This document shows, piece by piece, positions 48,474 to 60,205 of a DNA stretch of 64,000 nt; positions within the stretch are counted from its first letter, which is position 1; each line of letters begins with the position of its first letter. Made by a program: the position numbers and the translations under genes. The DNA is taken from the NCBI GenBank assembly GCA_958295945.1, contig OY282386.1:3466204-3530203 (forward strand), written 5' to 3'. This DNA is from Candidatus Poribacteria bacterium. Its GTDB lineage: Bacteria; Poribacteria; WGA-4E; WGA-3G. The notes below the pieces were generated by a model, which ran no database searches, was not told the origin of the DNA, and saw only the letters and a program-made list of their open reading frames with translations.

Positions 48474-48965
48474 TTAAATAATCCATTTTTCTCTCTTTAT
48501 TAATTCCACTAAATTTATCCATTCTATATTGAAATGCAAACAAACATCGGGGATGTGTGGTCTCTTTATATTATCTGTAGGTTTTTCTTCTGTTACAACA
48601 ATACCCTGATCATAAATGAGTGCTAATGCGATACACCAAGGATCTCCTCCAGATTTCTGTCTCCGAGTGTCTATGAGTCTCGGATATTCAGTTAGTATCT
48701 CACGGACTCTTTCTTGGATAGATTCATCAATTGGGACATGCAAAAATCGTTTTAATTGATTCTGATTGAACCATTTCTTTACTTCTGAATTCTTGACTGT
48801 TTCTTCATAAATGACTTGTGTCATTTTTAGTCTATGACTTTGTATCAGTATCTTTACCTTAGCCCACAATGTCGGAAAATAATCAATAGGATATCGTTCA
48901 TGAAACGCAGCAAAAAATGCGCTGGTATCAAAACTGTAGATTTCATGTTCAAATAGTGTATTCAT
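48474..48965 (-). CDS. PIN-like protein of the DUF4411 type, probable toxin
   Basis: A 163-residue protein. The N-terminal acid is in IYSFDTSAFFAAFHERYPID, the central Glu in IYEETVKN, and late acids in SGGDPWCIALALIYDQGIVV and TEEKPTDN. This is the DUF4411 layout, a PIN-related fold. Its start overlaps the stop of the upstream ImmA/XRE gene as ATGA. Pairs of this kind are considered toxin-antitoxin units, with this protein as the nuclease. Confidence 0.8.
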   Translation of the reverse strand: MNTLFEHEIYSFDTSAFFAAFHERYPIDYFPTLWAKVKILIQSHRLKMTQVIYEETVKNSEVKKWFNQNQLKRFLHVPIDESIQERVREILTEYPRLIDTRRQKSGGDPWCIALALIYDQGIVVTEEKPTDNIKRPHIPDVCLHFNIEWINLVELIKREKWII

Positions 48966-50134
48966 GCGAAAATGGCACTTTCAATTTTAGCAAGATGTTT
49001 TGTGTTACAATTGGAAAAAACAGAGGTTAAACCAGCGAGCGTGATTTTTTCCTCATAATAAGCAGTGAAAGCGGTACGTGCAAAAAACTCACCAAAAGCA
49101 TTAAGTAACCGAGTATGATAATGTGGAAATCCTTTAGATTTTTGATTGGTATCGTTATACTCTTTTTCTTGTTCTAATCTAAACTTTTGGTACTTTTGAT
49201 TTGTAATCTTTTTGAGTGTTAACAACCTCCGCATAATGACTTCAGTGCTCACACGGAAGTAATGACTTGCTTCGGTTAACAATTTCGAATTGAAGGGGTG
49301 ATCTACTACTTTTAATAACTCTTTTTTAGGAACTAACACTTCTGCTGCAACTTGATTGCAGAATACCTCCACAGGGTCCACATTTTGAAAACTGACATCC
49401 TCGTAGTTCATATTCTGAATGATACTTTCTCCAAGTGCTATATGTACTAACTCGTGAATAATCGTAAAAATCCGTCCGTTAGGACTGTCTTGAGAATTTA
49501 AAACGATAACAGGAAATGGTTTCTGTGCAATGCAAAACCCTCGAAAAGTATTCAGTTGAACAGAAAGGTGTGCGTTAGCAGAAGTTTGACACACCAGAAT
49601 ACCTTTTGACTCGACAGTCCTTTTCCAAAACTTTAATATTTTATAACGATCCTTGGTTCGTGGGAGTTTTTCAGTATTGATATTTAGAAATTTCCTTATT
49701 TTCTCGGCAGCGCGCATGGGTGCTTCATTGCGATTGACCTTTAATGTCACTTCAGGAAAAGGCATTTCTAACAATTCATAAAATTCAATCAATGTCTCAC
49801 GTCTATCAAAAACTTCAAGGACATTCGCTTTCAATCTATAGTTCTGCTCATTATCGGGAGCAGCTGCCTGCGGTAATACTCGATAATCAGTAAGAGGACT
49901 AAAATCCTTGGGTGGTTTTGGTAAGTAGAAAATAGAAATATGAGTCCTATAGATATTTGCAATCTTTTTTAACTGCGCGAAGGTCGGCCGATCTTTACCG
50001 TTTTCCCAATCTTCAAGACGTTCTGGATTTATATTTAACTTTTCCGCTGCATCTTCAAGGTCCAATTTGATGCGTCTTTCCCGCGCCCACTTAAGGACAT
50101 CAGGCGTAATGAGTGCTTTGACAGATTTAGCCAT
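48962..50134 (-). CDS. XRE-type regulator fused to ImmA/IrrE metallopeptidase
   Basis: A 390-residue protein. The first 70 residues contain a Cro/C1-type helix-turn-helix (EDAAEKLNINPERLEDWENG). The central part has the zinc protease motif HELVH in FTIIHELVHIALGES, with a downstream FCNQVAAEVLVPK segment giving the third ligand. Such proteins act as protease-regulators of mobile elements or as the antitoxin of the following gene. ATG at 50134 is preferred; a TTG lies 21 bases upstream. It is translationally coupled to the DUF4411 gene. Confidence 0.87.
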   Translation of the reverse strand: MAKSVKALITPDVLKWARERRIKLDLEDAAEKLNINPERLEDWENGKDRPTFAQLKKIANIYRTHISIFYLPKPPKDFSPLTDYRVLPQAAAPDNEQNYRLKANVLEVFDRRETLIEFYELLEMPFPEVTLKVNRNEAPMRAAEKIRKFLNINTEKLPRTKDRYKILKFWKRTVESKGILVCQTSANAHLSVQLNTFRGFCIAQKPFPVIVLNSQDSPNGRIFTIIHELVHIALGESIIQNMNYEDVSFQNVDPVEVFCNQVAAEVLVPKKELLKVVDHPFNSKLLTEASHYFRVSTEVIMRRLLTLKKITNQKYQKFRLEQEKEYNDTNQKSKGFPHYHTRLLNAFGEFFARTAFTAYYEEKITLAGLTSVFSNCNTKHLAKIESAIFA

Positions 50135-50215
50135 GGTACATATACCTACGCTCAAGTTAAACGATTTTTCGTTAAACTCCGAGAACTTACAGATTAATTA
50201 ACTAATAGAGGCAAC

Positions 50216-50565: not shown

Positions 50566-50991
50566 TTATCCGTTAGGTTCTTCATTCTTTTCTGATGTCT
50601 TGGGTAGTGTCTCTGGTTTTTCTGTAATCTGAATATCAGTAATCTGTCCGTTTATTCTACTTCTGATAACTGATACTATTTCCTTAAGTGATGTCCGTGT
50701 TCGCCACCAATTAAGCATAAGGTAACTACCAAATAAAAGACCTACTACGATGATAAATGTAAATATTGTTTTCGCGAGATCCCATTTAAAATCTGCTGTT
50801 GCAATAGCAGCTATACATGTCAATGCTGTAGAAAACAGAAAAATTGCAAAATTGAACTGTAATGTTCCTCCTGCTCCTTTTTCTAATAACTCTAACTCGT
50901 GCTCCTTGACTTCATATATATTCAGAGAATCAACTCTGCCCCGTCTTATAAGAGGCTTTTCATCGCTTTGAGGAGAGTTTAGATCATGCAT
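50566..50991 (-). CDS. two-helix membrane protein of unknown function
   Basis: A 141-residue protein with a polar N-terminal 40 residues (SPQSDEKPLIRRGRVDSLNI), two membrane helices (about 48-66, FAIFLFSTALTCIAAIATA; and 74-95, TIFTFIIVVGLLFGSYLML) and a charged C-terminal tail. No family recognised. It starts 1 bp after the stop of the Cas2-like gene, with AGGAGAAA inside that gene's end, so the two are co-translated. Confidence 0.65.
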   Translation of the reverse strand: MHDLNSPQSDEKPLIRRGRVDSLNIYEVKEHELELLEKGAGGTLQFNFAIFLFSTALTCIAAIATADFKWDLAKTIFTFIIVVGLLFGSYLMLNWWRTRTSLKEIVSVIRSRINGQITDIQITEKPETLPKTSEKNEEPNG

Positions 50992-50992
50992 T

Positions 50993-51262
50993 TTACAATT
51001 TCTCCTTTAGCCATTCACTATTTTTAGTATTATACGGATTTGTCCATGCAGCCTCTATTCCAGACCGAATAACGAATATTCTATCCGATTCAGAAATATC
51101 CTTATTCAAAAAATCTCGAATCTGAACCGCACTTTGGTCAGAAATTACAGCCCAACAATTGTCGTGAATAGGGCAATAACCACTATATTGTTTAAGCTTT
51201 TCTTTAAGCTGATTTTGTTTAGAAGCATCAGACACTTCAAATGTAACAATATAAGTTGTCAT
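50993..51262 (-). CDS. small Cas2-like/SinR-type ferredoxin-fold protein
   Basis: An 89-residue protein, MTTYIVTFEVSDASKQNQLK, with NCWAVISDQSAVQIRDFLNK, then DRIFVIRSGIEAAW. This is a small ferredoxin-like fold close to Cas2 and to the SinR-type proteins that occur outside CRISPR loci. No Cas1 and no repeat array are present, so an adaptation role is unlikely. It heads a two-gene unit with a membrane protein, bounded by identical mobile elements. Confidence 0.65.
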   Translation of the reverse strand: MTTYIVTFEVSDASKQNQLKEKLKQYSGYCPIHDNCWAVISDQSAVQIRDFLNKDISESDRIFVIRSGIEAAWTNPYNTKNSEWLKEKL

Positions 51263-51529: not shown

Positions 51530-52891
51530 TTATATTGAATAAATCATTCGACTTGCTTCTTCAAATTCTGGTTCAAGTGGATCTGTAGATAGATATAGTT
51601 TCTGATACGGTTCATATAATTGGATATAACTCCAATTGACACCACATAAGAGTTTACCGTTATTTACGAGTTTGATAAATCTTCCACGAAACTTCGCACG
51701 AGTGCGTTCTGGTGGCACATGCATCGCTTGACGAATCTGGTTATCATCTAAGATCCTTTCCGTTAATCCTCTTTTTTCCGCCTTATAATATACGCTGGAA
51801 TCCTGACGTATATTGTGGTATTCTAAATCTAAACGTCGGACTTCGGCTGAGTTCCAGTCTAATGAACTACGACTGACATAAGCCTCAAGCCACTTTCGTT
51901 TGATGACCCAATCAAGTTCACGGTCCAATTGCATTGGATTGTCCTCAAGACGTGTCATCACATATTCCCATCGAGACATGACTTCATCAGTGGTAGGATC
52001 AGATTCTGCTTGCTCAAGATACCGTTTGGCGCATTCAAAGTATTGCCATTGAAGTTCAATCGCAGATAGACGTTTACCATTTTCAAGTTCTATGAGGCGT
52101 TTACAGGAGATATCCTCAGAAATTTCGTGAATTGCTTGAACAGAGTTTCGTAGGGCAAAACGTTCTGTGATAAAATGATCTTCTATCATTCGCAGGATAA
52201 TACCAGTTGTTCCTACCTTCAAAAACGTTGACAATTCGGACATATTGGAATCGCCAACAATGACGTGCAATCGTCTATATTTCTCTCTGTCTGCATGGGG
52301 TTCATCTCGCGTGTTGATAATACCGCGTGCAGTTGTTGTTGCTATGGATATTTCTTCTCGGATGTGTTGTGCACGCTGAGAAATCTCATAGAAGCCTTGG
52401 TCGCTTCGCTTAACTTTGCCTGCACCTGAATATATTTGTCGGGTGACAAAAAATGGAATGAGTTGCGATGCTAACTGCCGAAAACTAACCTTTTCGCGTT
52501 CCATCAGGTAGTTTTCATGACAGCCGTAAGTATTACCGACTGTATCTAAATTGTTCTTGAAGATGGAGATTTTTCCACGGAATCCATCTGTCTGCATCCT
52601 ACGTTCTGCTGTGGTAGCGAGACGGGTGACAATGCGTTCCCCTGCTTTATCGTGTGCAACAAGTTCAATAACATCATCACATTCTGGAGTCGCATATTCT
52701 GGATGGCATCCTATATCTTGATAAAACCTCGCACCGTTTTCCAAAAACACATCGGGATACATCCTACCCGAAATGATCTCGCGAAACAGATACATGACAA
52801 CATTCTGTACAGTAAGTTTTTTTCCTCTGTTTTTATCTGGGGTACAGATTATGCCGTATTCGGTTTCCAATCCGTATATTCTACGATGCAT
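51530..52891 (-). CDS. pafA: Pup-protein ligase PafA
   Basis: A 453-residue ATP-dependent ligase that joins the C-terminal Glu of Pup to substrate lysines. The nucleotide-site start is RIYGLETEYGIICTP, with the conserved FLENGARFYQDIGCHPEYAT and ECDDV. Other family blocks are FKNNLDTVGNTYGCHENYLM, IINTRDEPHADREKYRRLHV and IVGDSNMSE. It lacks the extra loop near residue 40 that marks Dop. The carboxylate-amine ligase fold is complete. Its start overlaps the prcA stop by 11 bp, so it is the last gene of the proteasome operon. Confidence 0.95.
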   Translation of the reverse strand: MHRRIYGLETEYGIICTPDKNRGKKLTVQNVVMYLFREIISGRMYPDVFLENGARFYQDIGCHPEYATPECDDVIELVAHDKAGERIVTRLATTAERRMQTDGFRGKISIFKNNLDTVGNTYGCHENYLMEREKVSFRQLASQLIPFFVTRQIYSGAGKVKRSDQGFYEISQRAQHIREEISIATTTARGIINTRDEPHADREKYRRLHVIVGDSNMSELSTFLKVGTTGIILRMIEDHFITERFALRNSVQAIHEISEDISCKRLIELENGKRLSAIELQWQYFECAKRYLEQAESDPTTDEVMSRWEYVMTRLEDNPMQLDRELDWVIKRKWLEAYVSRSSLDWNSAEVRRLDLEYHNIRQDSSVYYKAEKRGLTERILDDNQIRQAMHVPPERTRAKFRGRFIKLVNNGKLLCGVNWSYIQLYEPYQKLYLSTDPLEPEFEEASRMIYSI

Positions 52892-53591
52892 GATTAAATA
52901 TCTCTGCTATCTCTTCAGCGGTGAAACGACGAAACTTACGTCGTCCATTAGTTGCATCCAGACACCCAACCTCAATTGATTGTGGTGTTATCTGATACGG
53001 TTCTGATTCTTCTACCTCAATAGCCTCAAAAGTTCTTGATGCAAGTTGCATCGCTTCGGTTAAGTCCAACCCCTCATTATAAGTCTCATTTAACTTCTCG
53101 GTTATGGCCTCTGCTCTTCCTCCTATAACTGCAAACTTCTCCATTTCCTCATAAGTTCCATCAAATGCGATCTTGTAAATTTGGCTTCTCACATCCGGTT
53201 CTCCATCCACTTCACAAACGAGTAGTTCAATCTCAAGCGGTTTTACATCCCACGCTTGCGCAATTGCCATCATTTGTTGCGAATATAGATTTGTCAACCA
53301 TTTACCAGTCACATCTTCACGGTAATAGGTATATCCCTTCACCTCTGCCTCACGAATACCGACTACGCGAAGTGTTTCATATTCAGAGACACGACCTGTG
53401 GATGCAAGGGCAATTTTATCGTATATTTCAGAAACTTTGAAAATAGTTCTTCGCGGGTTCTCTGCTACCATTAGGAGACCGTTGTTATATTCCAATACAA
53501 CGACCTCTTTTGCTTGTCCTATGCCGCGATCAACAAATACCTTTTTATCTTCCCAAATCTGGTCAGGTGACACGTAATAAGGTGTTGACAT
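52881..53591 (-). CDS. prcA: 20S proteasome alpha subunit
   Basis: A 236-residue non-catalytic alpha subunit. It starts MSTPYYVSPDQIWEDKKVFV, the short N-terminal helix that gates the pore, and has YNNGLLMVAENPRRTIFKVS and IYDKIALASTGRVSEY, as in actinobacterial PrcA. Seven copies form each outer ring and receive the Arc tail. AGAGGAA precedes the ATG. A 156-bp inverted-repeat element separates it from prcB, which is unusual for this pair. It overlaps pafA by 11 bp. Confidence 0.93.
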   Translation of the reverse strand: MSTPYYVSPDQIWEDKKVFVDRGIGQAKEVVVLEYNNGLLMVAENPRRTIFKVSEIYDKIALASTGRVSEYETLRVVGIREAEVKGYTYYREDVTGKWLTNLYSQQMMAIAQAWDVKPLEIELLVCEVDGEPDVRSQIYKIAFDGTYEEMEKFAVIGGRAEAITEKLNETYNEGLDLTEAMQLASRTFEAIEVEESEPYQITPQSIEVGCLDATNGRRKFRRFTAEEIAEIFNHAS

Positions 53592-53605
53592 TTATTCCTC
53601 TAATC

Positions 53606-53761
53606 TAATTTAACCTAAGTTGCTACCTACTGAATATTAATCATCAAAGGACTTTATCAAACGAAGAAACACAGAAATTCTGCATATTTTAGTGCCACTT
53701 CTTATAAATCGGGGTTAGAAACCCCTCCAACAAATGATAGGTGGTAACTTAGGTTAATTTA
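53606..53761. repeat. 156-bp inverted-repeat element between prcB and prcA
   Basis: Ends at 53606-53629 and 53738-53761 are inverted repeats agreeing at 21 of 24 positions, both containing TTAACCTAAGTT. The centre has the hairpin GGGGTT-AGA-AACCCC (53711-53725). Its ends differ from the TATAGT family, so it is a second type of small element. It fills the 185-bp gap within the proteasome operon, ending just short of the prcA ribosome site. Confidence 0.8.
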
Positions 53762-53776
53762 ATAAGAATTTGGGAG

Positions 53777-54568
53777 TTACAATTGTCCCAATCGTGAAAC
53801 TAACTCTTCAAACAATTGCTCAACGGTCTCATCAGAAATATCGGAAACGCCTTGTTCTGTTATGGAAATCAGCGTTGGAAATATCTTCCTAATCAGATCA
53901 GGACCACCCGTTGCAATGTCCTCATCTGCAGCATCCCACAATGCCTCCGCAATTGCTGTTAATGCATCTTGTTCAGACATATCTGGACGATACATCTTTT
54001 TTAGGGTAGAACGTGCATCTTTACCACCAGAGCCGATGGAATAATAGGTATCTTCCTCATAACGGCCACCGAGAGCATCATATTTAAAGATTCGCCCCTT
54101 CTTCTGTTTTAAATCGTATCCAGCAAAAATCGGAAGGACAATCAGACCTTGCATGGCTAAACTCAAATTCATTCTAACAAGACTTGAAAGATAGTTTGCT
54201 TGTCCATCCAAACTTAGAGATGTCCCTTCCATCTTTTCGTAAAATTCGACTTGAACTTGGAAGAGTTTCGCTGTTTCAAAACAAGGACCTGCCACACCTG
54301 CAACCGCAATCGCAGAGTGTCTGTCAATCTTAAACACCTTCTGAATTCGGCGTTCACCTACTTGATATCCTTCAGTTGCTTGACGATCTCCTGCAAGAAT
54401 TACGCCATCATTATAGACAAGCGCAAGTACAGTAGTGCCTTCTAAATAATTGTGTGGAAAGCCATCTTGAACATTATTGAGACGGTTCCAGTCTGCAACC
54501 TGATCAGGATATCTACTCTTTAGAATCTGTAAGAAATCGGTCTTTCCATAGTCATCGGGTTTGAGCAA
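53777..54568 (-). CDS. prcB: 20S proteasome beta subunit
   Basis: A 263-residue catalytic subunit. The propeptide is residues 1-44. Processing before Thr45 (LEGTTVLALVYNDG) exposes the nucleophile. Counting from it, Asp17 (ILAGDRQAT) and Lys33 (RRIQKVFKI) are at the canonical places, so the Thr1-Asp17-Lys33 site is complete. SIGSGGKDARSTLKK supplies the Gly-rich and Ser/Asp positions. Seven copies form each inner ring. The gene starts 2 bp after the pup stop. Confidence 0.95.
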   Translation of the reverse strand: MLKPDDYGKTDFLQILKSRYPDQVADWNRLNNVQDGFPHNYLEGTTVLALVYNDGVILAGDRQATEGYQVGERRIQKVFKIDRHSAIAVAGVAGPCFETAKLFQVQVEFYEKMEGTSLSLDGQANYLSSLVRMNLSLAMQGLIVLPIFAGYDLKQKKGRIFKYDALGGRYEEDTYYSIGSGGKDARSTLKKMYRPDMSEQDALTAIAEALWDAADEDIATGGPDLIRKIFPTLISITEQGVSDISDETVEQLFEELVSRLGQL

Positions 54569-54570
54569 TC

Positions 54571-54768
54571 CTATTGACCTCCCCGCTGGATATAGTTTTC
54601 AACAAATTCCTCCGAATCTTCTTCTAAAATTTCATCAATTTCATCAAGAAGTGCATCTAAATCATCCGTTATATCATCAACGTTTTCATTGAGTTCTGGA
54701 TTTGGTTGGATCTCCTCATTTTCATTGGAGGGGTGATCTCGGTATTCTTGCTGTTTTTCGCGTGGCAT
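54571..54768 (-). CDS. pup: prokaryotic ubiquitin-like protein Pup
   Basis: A 65-residue, highly acidic, mostly disordered protein. The middle has the helix-forming, Arc-binding segment DDITDDLDALLDEIDEILEE, and the C-terminus is ENYIQRGGQ. The final Gly-Gly-Gln means it needs deamidation to Glu by Dop before ligation. The N-terminus is rich in charged and polar residues, as needed to thread into the ATPase. It sits between dop (81 bp upstream) and prcB (2 bp downstream), its normal place. Confidence 0.95.
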   Translation of the reverse strand: MPREKQQEYRDHPSNENEEIQPNPELNENVDDITDDLDALLDEIDEILEEDSEEFVENYIQRGGQ

Positions 54769-54849
54769 TTTGTGCTCCTTTACAATTGTGGTTACGGATA
54801 ACCTTTAAATATAAGTAATGAACATAATTCCTATTCAACAAGATTCATT

Positions 54850-56331
54850 TCAGTCATTTCGGATTTTGTCAACAAGTTCATCAACAGTACAAGTATTCAA
54901 CAGTTCACCAATAATCGCTTGAGTGCCGAAGTGTGGACGTTCCATCATTATCTTTTCAAAACCATTTGAACCATTGAAAACAATTGAATTCCAACTTACG
55001 CTGTGAATACTATTTGGGTATTTTCGTAGACATGTGCCACGAAAATAGGCGCGTGTATCTAACGGTGGATGCTGTACCCCATGAACTATTTCTTCATGTG
55101 TTAATATGCGTTCCACATGTCCGTTTTTTTGTAAACGATAATATAGTCCTTTATCTGGACGCAAGTCATGATATTGTAGGTCAAGCATTCTAATTCGCGG
55201 GTCTGTCCACTTAAAACCGTGTCTGGCGATATAGGCATCAATCAGTTTTTTCTTAATTACCCAATCTAAATGGTGTCCTAAACTCATCGGGTCAGATTTC
55301 AGACCCTCTAAAACAAACTCCCATTTTTCCAAAACATCATTGACTATAGGTGCACGTTCTTCAGTGGAAAGGTGTTTATGTGCTAATTCAAGATATGCCT
55401 GCTGAATTTCTACTGCTGTCCATTTTCGGTCATCTTTAAGTTCATATACATTCTTACAAGATAAATTCCGAGATACTGATTTTATCACCGCAACAGGATC
55501 TTGTAAAGCGAATTGCTTACCTATAACCCTTTTTTCAATCAATTGCAGAACGATTGCGGTGATACCAACTTTCAGATATATAGTGAATTCGGACATATTT
55601 GAATCACCCACGATAACATGCAACCGGCGATACAACTTTGAATCTGCATGAGGTTCATCACGGGTGTTAATCAATGGTCGTTCAACCATTGTGCTAAGTC
55701 CAACTTCTTTTTCAAAAAAGTCTGCACGTTGCGAAATTTGGAATTCCGTGTCATCCGCTCCGTTTTCTGCACCTACCTTGCCACTACCGGTCATTATTTG
55801 TCGTGTAACGAGAAACGGTGTTAGACCGTTTACTATGTCCGGAAACGGGATCTTACGTGACATCAGGTAGTTTTCATGCGATCCGTAACTATGTCCTTTG
55901 TAGTCTGTATTATTCTTATATATTATGATTTCTTGGTTATCCAACAACAACTGTTCGGCAGCGAGGCGACTCAAATCTAAAATTAATTCACCTGCTTTTT
56001 CATATTTCACCAAATCGCGCGCATTACTACACTCAGGGGTGCAATATTCAGGATGTGCGTGATCAACATAATATCTGCCACCGTTGATAAGAATATCGTT
56101 GATGACACTATTATTGGCATCCTCACTTGGTGGTTTTTCACTCTCTGCCGTGAACCCGCGTGCGTCTAACATTGGACTCTCTTGTCCATAATCCCACGAA
56201 ATCGATGGAATGTTACGACTTTTGTATGCATTGACAACTAATGTCGATGCCGCTACAGGGTCTTGTTCACGCGCATTCTTGACAGAGATACCGAACTCTG
56301 TTTCGGTGCCGATTATTGTTGGTACTGTCAT
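54850..56331 (-). CDS. dop: Pup deamidase/depupylase Dop
   Basis: A 493-residue homologue of PafA that deamidates the Pup C-terminal Gln and removes Pup from substrates. It starts IIGTETEFGISVKNAREQDP. The inserted Dop loop is in residues about 45-75 (ESPMLDARGFTAESEKPPSE). Family blocks include YYVDHAHPEYCTPECSNARD, YKNNTDYKGHSYGSHENYLM and INTRDEPHADSKLYRRLHVI. The Asp in the DARGF-type segment near 56 is typical of Dop. It lies 50 bp downstream of arc and 81 bp upstream of pup. Confidence 0.95.
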   Translation of the reverse strand: MTVPTIIGTETEFGISVKNAREQDPVAASTLVVNAYKSRNIPSISWDYGQESPMLDARGFTAESEKPPSEDANNSVINDILINGGRYYVDHAHPEYCTPECSNARDLVKYEKAGELILDLSRLAAEQLLLDNQEIIIYKNNTDYKGHSYGSHENYLMSRKIPFPDIVNGLTPFLVTRQIMTGSGKVGAENGADDTEFQISQRADFFEKEVGLSTMVERPLINTRDEPHADSKLYRRLHVIVGDSNMSEFTIYLKVGITAIVLQLIEKRVIGKQFALQDPVAVIKSVSRNLSCKNVYELKDDRKWTAVEIQQAYLELAHKHLSTEERAPIVNDVLEKWEFVLEGLKSDPMSLGHHLDWVIKKKLIDAYIARHGFKWTDPRIRMLDLQYHDLRPDKGLYYRLQKNGHVERILTHEEIVHGVQHPPLDTRAYFRGTCLRKYPNSIHSVSWNSIVFNGSNGFEKIMMERPHFGTQAIIGELLNTCTVDELVDKIRND

Positions 56332-56381
56332 TATTCACTTTCTATATGAAATTGGTCAATAGTCAGGATAGACAACAAATA

Positions 56382-58178
56382 TTAAAGGTATGTTCCACCT
56401 TTGCTTACACGCACCTCTGGATTTCTACGTGTCTCAGGTTCATTGATTAATGCGCGAATGTTGACGATTTTCTCGCCTTTCCTGCCAGATATTTTTGCCC
56501 AATCATCAGGATTAGTGGTGTTCGGAAGGTCTTCGTTTTCGCGATATTCCTCGCGAATTGCAGTTTTCATATCGTTAAGCGAAATACCTTTTTCTTTCCC
56601 TTCAGAACTGATCAATCGTTTGATCGCCATCTTCTTTGCACGGGAGACTATATTCTCAATCATTGCACCACTAACGAAATCTTTGAAATAAAGGGTCTCT
56701 CGTTCTCCACGAGTGTAAGTGACTTCAATAAACTTGTTGTCATCAGTAGTCGCATACATCTCATCAATAGCAGCTGAAATGATGTGTTCTGATATACTTT
56801 CTGTATTCCCATCAAATTTATCTACTTCTTCCTTGGCAAACGGTAGGTCAGAAGTTAGATAGATAGAAAATATGTCTCTTGCACCTTCAATACATGGACG
56901 ATCAATCTTGATCTTTATGTCAAGTCTTCCCGGCCTTAATACTGCTGGATCCAACAGGTCTTGACGATTACTTGCCCCAATAACAATTACATCTCGTAAG
57001 TTTTCAACACCATCTATCATGGCAAGGAACTGCGGTACTAACGTAGACTCCATATCAGAAGAAATACCCGTACCACGTGAACGGAACAGCGAATCCATTT
57101 CGTCAAAGAAAATTACGACAGGAAAACCCTCTTTGGATTTCTCTCGTGCTTTAGCAAAGACCTCTCGTATCTTCCGCTCTGTTTCACCAACATATTTGTT
57201 TAATAGTTCTGGACCCTTAATATTTATAAAGTATCCTTTAACATCTTCTCTATCAGTCTCTTGGCGAATACGTTCAGCAAGACAATTCGCGACCGCACGG
57301 GCAATTAGAGTTTTTCCACATCCTGGTGGTCCGTATAATAGCACTCCTTTTGGCGGTGTAAGACTGAATTCCTTATACTCATTTGGGTATAGATACGGCA
57401 TCTCAATGGCATCTCGGATGGCTTCTATCTGCGAATCTAAACCGCCGATGTCTTGATAACTAATATCAGGAACTTCTTCAAGCAGAAGGTCTTCAAGTTC
57501 GCGTTTTGGAAGTTTTTCAAGGAGCATTCCACTGGTATGATTCAGCAAAACGTTATCACCCAATTTCAATGTCTCGTCTTTCAAGGATTCAGAAATACGG
57601 ACTACTTGTTCTTCATCTGTTCTGACATTGATAACTGCCCTATCAGAATCAAGCATCTCTTTGATTTTTACAACATCCCCATGTTTTTCAGGGGGTTGAA
57701 TTGCTACGACATTTAAGCCACTGTTGACGATGACTTCTTGTCCAACTTGCAACTGTTTGAGGTTTAGGGAGGGATCATGGTTGACACGCCATTTCTTGCC
57801 GCTTATATCAACATCTATCGTACCATCATCATTTGCACCCAAGAATATACCGTAGTTGTTCGGAGGGGCACTGAGCTGCTTGACCTTTTCTTTTAGAAGT
57901 TCAAGCTTTTCTTTAGCTTCTTGCAGGGTGTTTCTTAATTTTCGGTTTTGACGGTGTGCCTGCATCAGTTCGCGCGTCATATCATATAGACGCGCATCAA
58001 CATCATCGCCTGGCGTAGTGCTGAGTTGTCTCCGCAGATCACTGATTTCGTTCTCAAGCATCTCTATCTGCCAATTCAACTCACGAATACGTTGTGGATA
58101 GTTAACCTGCTCCGATGAGGTGTCTTCAATTTCTGAACCTATTAATATCTCTGATGTTGTCTCTCTTTTACTTGACAT
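56382..58178 (-). CDS. arc: proteasome-associated AAA+ ATPase (ARC/Mpa)
   Basis: A 598-residue ring ATPase that binds Pup, unfolds tagged proteins and feeds the 20S core. Order: a coiled coil (about 25-95, RIRELNWQIEMLENEISDLR), two OB folds (100-230), and the AAA+ module with Walker A GPPGCGKT and Walker B VVIFFDEMDSLF. The last residues, GGTYL, form the Gly-x-Tyr-Leu tail that docks into the alpha ring. The start MSSKRETT at 58178 is likely; a GTG 15 bases upstream is possible. It is the first gene of the proteasome run. Confidence 0.95.
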   Translation of the reverse strand: MSSKRETTSEILIGSEIEDTSSEQVNYPQRIRELNWQIEMLENEISDLRRQLSTTPGDDVDARLYDMTRELMQAHRQNRKLRNTLQEAKEKLELLKEKVKQLSAPPNNYGIFLGANDDGTIDVDISGKKWRVNHDPSLNLKQLQVGQEVIVNSGLNVVAIQPPEKHGDVVKIKEMLDSDRAVINVRTDEEQVVRISESLKDETLKLGDNVLLNHTSGMLLEKLPKRELEDLLLEEVPDISYQDIGGLDSQIEAIRDAIEMPYLYPNEYKEFSLTPPKGVLLYGPPGCGKTLIARAVANCLAERIRQETDREDVKGYFINIKGPELLNKYVGETERKIREVFAKAREKSKEGFPVVIFFDEMDSLFRSRGTGISSDMESTLVPQFLAMIDGVENLRDVIVIGASNRQDLLDPAVLRPGRLDIKIKIDRPCIEGARDIFSIYLTSDLPFAKEEVDKFDGNTESISEHIISAAIDEMYATTDDNKFIEVTYTRGERETLYFKDFVSGAMIENIVSRAKKMAIKRLISSEGKEKGISLNDMKTAIREEYRENEDLPNTTNPDDWAKISGRKGEKIVNIRALINEPETRRNPEVRVSKGGTYL

Positions 58179-58325
58179 AAGAATTATTCTCACAATCTAT
58201 TGAAAAGATTGATAGTATCGTAGAATATTGGTCAGTTTTACTATACCGACGCTAAGTGTATAAAAGTATAGCATGTTGAAACATTTACATCAAGAAAAAA
58301 CGCAATCACCTTACATAAAGGATAA

Positions 58326-58465: not shown

Positions 58466-59623
58466 TTACGCATCATCGTCGTCATTACTACCGGATGTGT
58501 CCGAGGTATCCTCAAACCCTGTGTCCACTTCCTCGTCAACAACATCTACACCCGGAATTTCTCCAGCACCAGACGGTGTAATAGCACCAATATTCTCACG
58601 GATTTTTCTATCCAGTTCTGCAGTAACTTCAGGATTCTGTTCTAAAAAAGCCTTTGCATTATTCCTACCTTGACCGATCCGTTCACTGTTGTAAGAGAAC
58701 CAGGAACCCCTTTTCTCAATGAAACCGGCATCAACAGCGATATCTAAGAGCGTTCCTTCTTTGGAGATACCCTTGCCAAAGGTGACATCAAATTCCGCTT
58801 CTCTAAAGGGTGGCGCGACCTTGTTTTTCACAACCTTAATCAGCACACGATTTCCAAGCACATCTGTCCCTTCTTTGATCTGCGTAGAACGTCGGATCTC
58901 CAATCTAATGGATGCATGAAACTTTAGGGCAAGTCCACCAGGGGTTGTATCTGGATTGCCAAACATCACGCCAATCTTTTGACGAATTTGGTTGGTGAAT
59001 ATTACACACGTCTGCGATTTGTTTGTCACACCCGATAGTTTTCTCAATGCTTTTGACATCAAACGAGGTAGCAACCCCACATGTGCATCACCCATCTCAC
59101 CCTCAACCTCTGCTTGAGGTGTTAGTGCTGCAACTGAATCTACTATCACAACATCAATGGCACCACTTCGGATAAGTGTTTCCACAATTTCCAATGCTTG
59201 TTCACCAGAATCCGGTTGTGAAATCAAAACGTTCTCCAAGTTCACACCAATATTCCGTGCATAAGTCGTATCTAACGCATGTTCAACATCAATAAATGCA
59301 GCTATGCCACCCATCTTCTGTGCTTCGGCAACAATATGGAGTGCCAATGTTGTTTTTCCAGTGCCTTCGTGTCCGAAGATTTCAACAATTCTCCCTCGCG
59401 GCACACCACCAACACCTAATGCCAAATCAAGTGAAAGTGCACCTGTAGGGATAGCACTTACAGGCACTACCTCGTCGTCTGTTAGACGCATGATAGCACC
59501 CTTACCGTAGGCTCGTTCTACCTGAGATATGGCATCGTCTACTGCCTTCTTTTTCGCCTCAGCTTTTTTCTTGTCTTCTGCGTTTAATTCTTTTTCCGGA
59601 TTTTTTTTCTCGTCATTCGCCAT
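58466..59623 (-). CDS. recA: recombinase RecA
   Basis: A 385-residue DNA strand-exchange ATPase that also triggers LexA cleavage. The Walker A is GHEGTGKT at 84-91, a variant of the usual GPESSGKT. Other family blocks are [39 protein letters not shown] and [20 protein letters not shown]. The N-terminus carries an extra Lys/Glu-rich 25 residues and the C-terminus is acidic, as usual. The thpR gene ends 3 bp upstream, so recA is co-transcribed with it. Confidence 0.97.
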
Positions 59624-59626
59624 TTT

Positions 59627-60205
59627 TTACTTTCTCCTGCCTAATGGATAGATATGTAACGGGGTGTAAACTGCACCACTGGGACGTAACTCACTTCCGA
59701 CAAGCGTGAGATGGTTAACATCCATTAAAGTCCCCGCAACTGTTTCAAATTTCTTGAATAGTTCAGAATCTGTTGTCATATTAACGCTTTCTTTAATTCT
59801 CGCAAGTGTTAAATGAGGATGAAAACGCTTGTCGTTTGAAAAACCCAACTCACCAAATTCAAGATTAATGGAATTCGCTAAAGTAGTGGTTTCATTCGCA
59901 CCTTGCGTCAACCCCACCCACAACACCCGTGGACGATACAAATTCGGAAATGTCCCTATACCACCAATTTCTATACGAAAAGGTTTGCGGTTTTCTACAA
60001 TTCCTTCTACCGTGGAATTTATCTTAGTGATATTACGCTTCTCAACATCGCCAAGAAACTTCAAGGTTAAATGAAAATTACCAAGCCGCGTCAACGATGC
60101 CTTCTTGATTCTTGGACGAAACTCTGATTGAACTTCAGATAAAATAACCTGAATTCTATCGGGTATTTCAATAGCAACAAAACACCTTTTAGAATCAGGA
60201 CTCAT
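59627..60205 (-). CDS. thpR: RNA 2',3'-cyclic phosphodiesterase (2H family)
   Basis: A 192-residue 2H phosphoesterase. The two catalytic motifs are His45-Leu-Thr47 (NFHLTLKFLG) and His131-Leu-Thr133 (RFHPHLTLARI), on opposite lobes as required. It opens 2',3'-cyclic phosphates on RNA and can join tRNA halves. It lies between pgsA (35 bp upstream) and recA (3 bp downstream), an order seen in several phyla. Confidence 0.92.
   Translation of the reverse strand: MSPDSKRCFVAIEIPDRIQVILSEVQSEFRPRIKKASLTRLGNFHLTLKFLGDVEKRNITKINSTVEGIVENRKPFRIEIGGIGTFPNLYRPRVLWVGLTQGANETTTLANSINLEFGELGFSNDKRFHPHLTLARIKESVNMTTDSELFKKFETVAGTLMDVNHLTLVGSELRPSGAVYTPLHIYPLGRRK

Follow-up and report, generated by a model that had tools for sequence, protein, structure and literature searches.

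A Pup-proteasome locus in a Candidatus Poribacteria genome that also carries a UBact-type locus

Six Pup-proteasome genes in the window

The window analyzed here, a stretch of 64,000 nucleotides from the genome of a Candidatus Poribacteria bacterium (single contig, 5.34 Mb), carries on its minus strand the six genes of a Pup-proteasome system: between positions 51530 and 58178, arc, dop, pup, prcB, prcA and pafA are intact and transcribed in that order. Genes were assigned using curated Pfam and NCBIfam models together with relatives of solved structure, with matches to Mpa of Mycobacterium tuberculosis (Mtb), Acidothermus Dop, Corynebacterium glutamicum PafA and the 20S particles of Rhodococcus and Mtb. 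An earlier note, made from the DNA letters alone, had described the same genes, order and coordinates as well as their key residues, and these models and motifs bear out that description. It had also taken the host to be no actinobacterium and the active sites to be undisrupted; the genome is indeed poribacterial, and catalytic residues are present in all examined components.

The product of arc (56382–58178, minus strand; alternative GTG start at 58193) is a Pup-type Arc/Mpa proteasomal AAA ATPase (TIGR03689, 710 bits; Mtb Mpa, 2e-176), comprising a coiled coil, two OB domains and an AAA domain, and ending in GGTYL (codons 56385–56399). The protein thereby has the docking tail with a penultimate tyrosine, GTYL, which the earlier note had read as Gly-x-Tyr-Leu. 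The next gene, dop (54850–56331, minus strand), encodes a Pup-type depupylase/deamidase (TIGR03688, 554 bits, above cut-off; Acidothermus Dop, 9e-137) with the Dop-loop WDYGQESPMLDARGF and the catalytic Asp90, the equivalent of Asp59 in PafA. The tag gene pup (54571–54768, minus strand) encodes 65 residues with an acidic C-terminal half (PF05639, 4e-18; TIGR03687, above cut-off), and since the protein ends in RGGQ, i.e. in the glutamine noted before, deamidation is needed.

The 20S beta subunit is encoded by prcB (53777–54568, minus strand; TIGR03690, 280 bits, above cut-off), for which the listed TTG start is uncertain, and the predicted Thr1 (codon 54434–54436), Asp17 and Lys33 are all present. 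The alpha subunit, encoded by prcA (52881–53591, minus strand; TIGR03691, 232 bits, above cut-off; Mtb PrcA, 2e-48), retains the lysine at Mtb position 52. The last gene, pafA (51530–52891, minus strand), overlaps prcA by 11 bases and encodes the Pup ligase (PF03136, 1e-151; C. glutamicum PafA, 2e-99). Its score of 521 bits against TIGR03686 is under the NCBI equivalog cut-off of 551 and well over its Dop score of 413; Asp59 aligns with the catalytic D64 of C. glutamicum PafA, and the Dop-loop is missing, being found at this locus only in Dop. Ligase and deamidase are thus both present, as had been proposed, and the catalytic aspartate is found in all 114 PafA and Dop sequences compared. The assignment of the window locus to the known Pup-proteasome kind is well supported.

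A second, UBact-type locus and the distribution of the two tags

At a distance of 0.85 Mb from the window locus (genome contig 1, about 2,666,000–2,672,800), the genome has another complete set of six genes, with an adjacent pair of Pup_ligase genes, prcBA and a proteasomal ATPase in the same gene order (arc2, dop2, UBact, prcB2, prcA2, pafA2); in total it contains four Pup_ligase genes rather than two. As this locus is outside the window it was invisible to the author of the earlier note, whose complete pathway is present with all six genes but is not the only one of the cell. The tag encoded here belongs to UBact, a family reportedly named by Lehmann et al. in 2017: it has 65 residues, ends in RTGE, and matches PF20513 (1e-18) and NF033388 (74.7 bits, cut-off 35). 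Arc2 ends in SPVI, and this tail, found instead of GxYL, together with the UBact tag sets the second locus apart from the Pup systems. Dop2 is Dop-like and has the Dop-loop; PafA2 lacks it and scored 362 and 359 bits against the PafA and Dop profiles, respectively. Components of the two systems share about 33–48% sequence identity within this genome, and the likeness between its Pup and UBact tags is no better than that of chance-level alignments.

Within the genus, purifying selection acts on the genes of both loci, with median ratios of nonsynonymous to synonymous substitution rates (dN/dS) of 0.054–0.077 for the Pup-locus genes and 0.037–0.092 for the UBact-locus genes, values that are rough because many pairs had a dS above 1. 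As the Pup genes are intact, non-actinobacterial and under such selection (dN/dS about 0.05–0.08), the system is very probably used, as the earlier note had presumed in calling it functional.

Comparison of per-genome lists of Pup and UBact matches revealed how widespread the pairing is. Of the 84 genomes of the Poribacteria phylum, 75 had a UBact match and 77 a Pup match; 70 had both tags, five only UBact, seven only Pup and two, from other classes, neither. Low completeness accounts for some of the single-system genomes, though not for all. In Nitrospirota (295 genomes), Pup was found in 137, UBact in 103 and both in 96, and four Pup_ligase genes were present in eight of the ten genomes checked and two in the remaining two; genomes with both tags mostly have four. 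We also drew from the scan hits 35 UBact genomes outside Poribacteria, including four of Nitrospirota, three of which had Pup, and the search for Pup in the 31 others (including Verrucomicrobia, Armatimonadota, Latescibacterota and Gemmatimonadota) gave no match. The UBact-type system is common to Poribacteria and five other phyla.

Several loci in these genomes deviate from the usual arrangement. Two Nitrospirota genomes, G187 and G224, each with two Pup genes, are absent from the list of UBact-matching genomes. In genome G019 about 3 kb separate prcA2 and prcB2 of the UBact locus (L208, 5730–8790), possibly an insertion, and in several genomes of family f5 (L222/L223, L224/L225, L230/L231) the UBact system is on two contigs, with arc2-dop2 apart from UBact-prcB2-prcA2-pafA2. 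Genome G057 has nine Pup_ligase matches and a pafA2 that seems to be split over several frames, perhaps by sequencing error (L221, 12168–13438), and in G051 dop1 consists of two open segments with a stop in the assembled sequence between them (L219, 3–1019).

In trees of Arc, PrcB and PrcA, the Pup-type and UBact-type sequences were split with a support of 100 each, with Poribacteria as one group inside each half of the Arc and PrcB trees. In trees of the kind suggested in the earlier note, with only one or two actinobacterial sequences each, the poribacterial Pup-type genes formed a group of their own beside Nitrospirota. This placement bears on the idea that the cell simply has one ordinary Pup-proteasome of actinobacterial origin, with a redundant paralogue as its second locus. 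Gene order and motifs do agree with Actinobacteria, and according to a published view the pathways of other phyla were transferred from there (PMC7947786), but the separate grouping speaks against such an origin, and an identity of about 33–48% together with a different tag family argues against a recent duplicate, as do the selection acting on the second locus and its presence in five other phyla. We consider this explanation unlikely. A recent transfer from Actinobacteria in particular is unsupported by the trees, thin as their actinobacterial sampling is.

Tags, ATPase tails and a tag-typed stretch of PafA and Dop

None of the 115 loci with at least three components was mixed, and tags as well as ATPase tails fall into two distinct kinds. 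The last 30 residues have a mean net charge of -10.2 (-12 to -6) in the 17 distinct Pups and of +5.3 (+2 to +7) in the 62 distinct UBacts, with no overlap. All 18 Pup-type Arc tails follow G-x-[YF]-[LF], and all 34 UBact-type tails end in [VIA]-[IVL] and have no aromatic residue; six further UBact-type tails, from Nitrospirota, are of the same kind. The lysine at Mtb position 52 of the alpha subunit, which binds the carboxylate of the ATPase, is retained in 23 of 23 and 90 of 90 sequences of the two system types. This shared lysine, the identical core active sites, and the common fold and catalytic residues of the enzymes would all be compatible with systems that share parts, where either ATPase or core serves both tags in one flexible pathway. 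Such sharing appears rather doubtful given the lack of mixed loci, the tails that differ without exception, the opposite tag charges, and a tag-typed stretch that is found in both PafA and Dop.

That stretch emerged from the phylogeny of the two enzymes. A tree of the whole PafA and Dop alignment grouped the sequences by tag (100/100), a topology that would require the ligase to have arisen twice, the PafA of each system coming independently from a Dop-like enzyme; loss of the Dop-loop together with an exchanged alpha-loop can convert Dop into a ligase (PMC7947786). When alignment columns 480–600 were left out, however, the tree grouped by enzyme, with PafA and Dop split at 95, and approximately unbiased (AU) tests did not reject a single PafA group (p 0.175 and 0.148). 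Site likelihoods located the conflicting signal at about residues 290–399 of the window Dop (55135–55464, minus strand), with residues 288–399 contributing +71 log units in favor of grouping by tag and the rest summing to -40. The 95% point of shuffled data was 39 and none of 5000 shuffles gave such a window, a test that overstates significance as neighboring sites are not independent, and the 110-residue stretch was picked after inspecting the data. With the signal confined to this one stretch, two independent ligase origins are highly improbable, and neither the AU tests nor the reduced tree upheld them.

The same region stands out by charge. In both enzymes, the charge at eleven columns varies with the type of tag. 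These columns all fall within residues 329–407 of the window Dop, most of them inside 290–399, and in nine of the eleven the Pup-type enzymes are the more basic ones. The simplest reading is that a single old PafA/Dop duplication was followed by changes in this stretch that may have occurred in both enzymes along with the tag, through either selection or gene conversion.

Taken by homology, the window system would work as follows: Dop would deamidate Pup-Gln to Pup-Glu, which PafA would ligate to lysines; the coiled coil of Arc would bind the tag, its GTYL tail would dock on PrcA, and the substrate would be fed to PrcB. The cell probably runs two such protein-disposal pathways side by side. 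These appear to be held apart by a code with two parts, tag charge and ATPase tail, in that the oppositely charged tags would be read by the stretch of PafA and Dop that changed together with them, and each kind of tail (G-x-[YF]-[LF] or [VIA]-[IVL]) would serve its own 20S core.

Several points weigh against this interpretation. PafA2 is about equidistant from the PafA and Dop profiles, and its role as a ligase is deduced from its position and the missing Dop-loop. The trees hold few actinobacterial sequences, and UBact-type enzymes are more acidic overall, which makes some of the charge shift a general one. Good genomes with one system exist, G036 lacking UBact and G029 lacking Pup, and neither system is therefore indispensable. 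Finally, the activity and insulation of both systems are something we infer, as distinct from the gene content, conservation, residue patterns, trees and selection that are observed, and a contact of residues 290–399 with the tag is likewise predicted from the sequence pattern. On balance, the window likely encodes the Pup-proteasome of a diderm cell that has two complete systems, kept apart by tag and tail. The chances are about even for the more specific proposal of two insulated ubiquitin-like proteasome pathways, where a matching stretch of ligase and deligase reads the tag charge and each of the two 20S cores is served by its own kind of tail.

If the latter is true, the UBact ATPase tail would act as a docking signal that lacks the penultimate tyrosine typical of the hydrophobic-tyrosine-any residue (HbYX) type. 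A bacterium with two conserved tag-and-degrade systems in parallel would make it possible to test directly why a cell has two ubiquitin-like pathways and how they are kept apart; the residue patterns offer concrete swaps for purified proteins and hint at a possible tyrosine-free proteasome docking tail.

Genomic neighborhood and known systems

The window locus is preceded by recA (58466–59623, minus strand; PF00154, 8e-128), about 0.27 kb before arc, and by the LigT-type gene thpR (59627–60205, minus strand; PF02834, 5e-25). The LolA-like gene reported for the window is real (PF03548, 3e-8). On the other side, downstream of pafA, two small proteins without a Pfam match are encoded at 50566–51262 (minus strand), and at 48474–50155 (minus strand) a helix-turn-helix (HTH)-Peptidase_M78 (ImmA/IrrE-like) gene is followed by a DUF4411 gene, a pair resembling a toxin-antitoxin or mobile-element module.

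The earlier note had tied the system to stress or DNA damage via recA and thpR, i.e. to a recA-linked regulon. The block recA-thpR-pgsA-lolA does flank the Pup genes in families f1 and f2 and in one genus of f4, and in one Nitrospirota genome (L214) pup comes after thpR-recA and is separated by over 80 kb from the other genes of its system. No such block was found, however, in the flanking sequence read for f3 (a short flank), genus g7 of f4, f5 and f6, and matches to promoters and terminators around recA-arc were at chance level only. The link is a lineage-limited neighborhood and no evidence for DNA-damage control or a regulon, leaving the proposed tie weak and such a regulon very unlikely.

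A Pup-proteasome outside Actinobacteria is not in itself new: such systems were described by Iyer 2008 (PMC2588565) and, as far as De Mot 2007 is quoted in PMC3511204, in Gram-negative bacteria, and they were known from Nitrospirae in 2007–2012. Among the papers searched, the only one naming both Poribacteria and pupylation was a general review. Nor are two coexisting systems in one organism a novelty, since two divergent pupylation systems, L1 and L2, have been described in Leptospirillum ferrooxidans (2012 review, PMC3511204). The specialist interest of the window locus lies in its coexistence with UBact and in the residue patterns that may separate the systems.

The window locus resembles those of Actinobacteria (Mycobacterium, Corynebacterium, Acidothermus) in its six components, gene order, catalytic residues, GxYL ATPase tail and Dop-loop, and in a tag ending in GGQ, but is found in a diderm candidate phylum and coexists with a UBact system. 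A search for the activator Bpa/PafE in Poribacteria gave no match, and as the control was also unmatched this does not imply absence. The second locus is, by PF20513 and by NF033388 above cut-off, a member of the UBact systems, which Lehmann et al. 2017 (BBRC), as cited in PMC5751360, reported from Gram-negative bacteria; here it occurs together with Pup. The Nitrospirota Pup systems, the nearest Pup-type relatives in the trees, are often found beside UBact as well, but unlike the window locus several of them (L209, L210, L212, L214) have pup detached from arc-dop-prcBA-pafA. The L1 and L2 systems of L. ferrooxidans, known here by their published description, likewise comprise two complete loci in one genome with the same gene context and very different sequences, one having a tag without GGE. 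In contrast to that description, the two systems are a class-wide trait in Poribacteria, and the present comparison of tag families, of the tail code, of charge inversion and of the tag-typed stretch covers six phyla.

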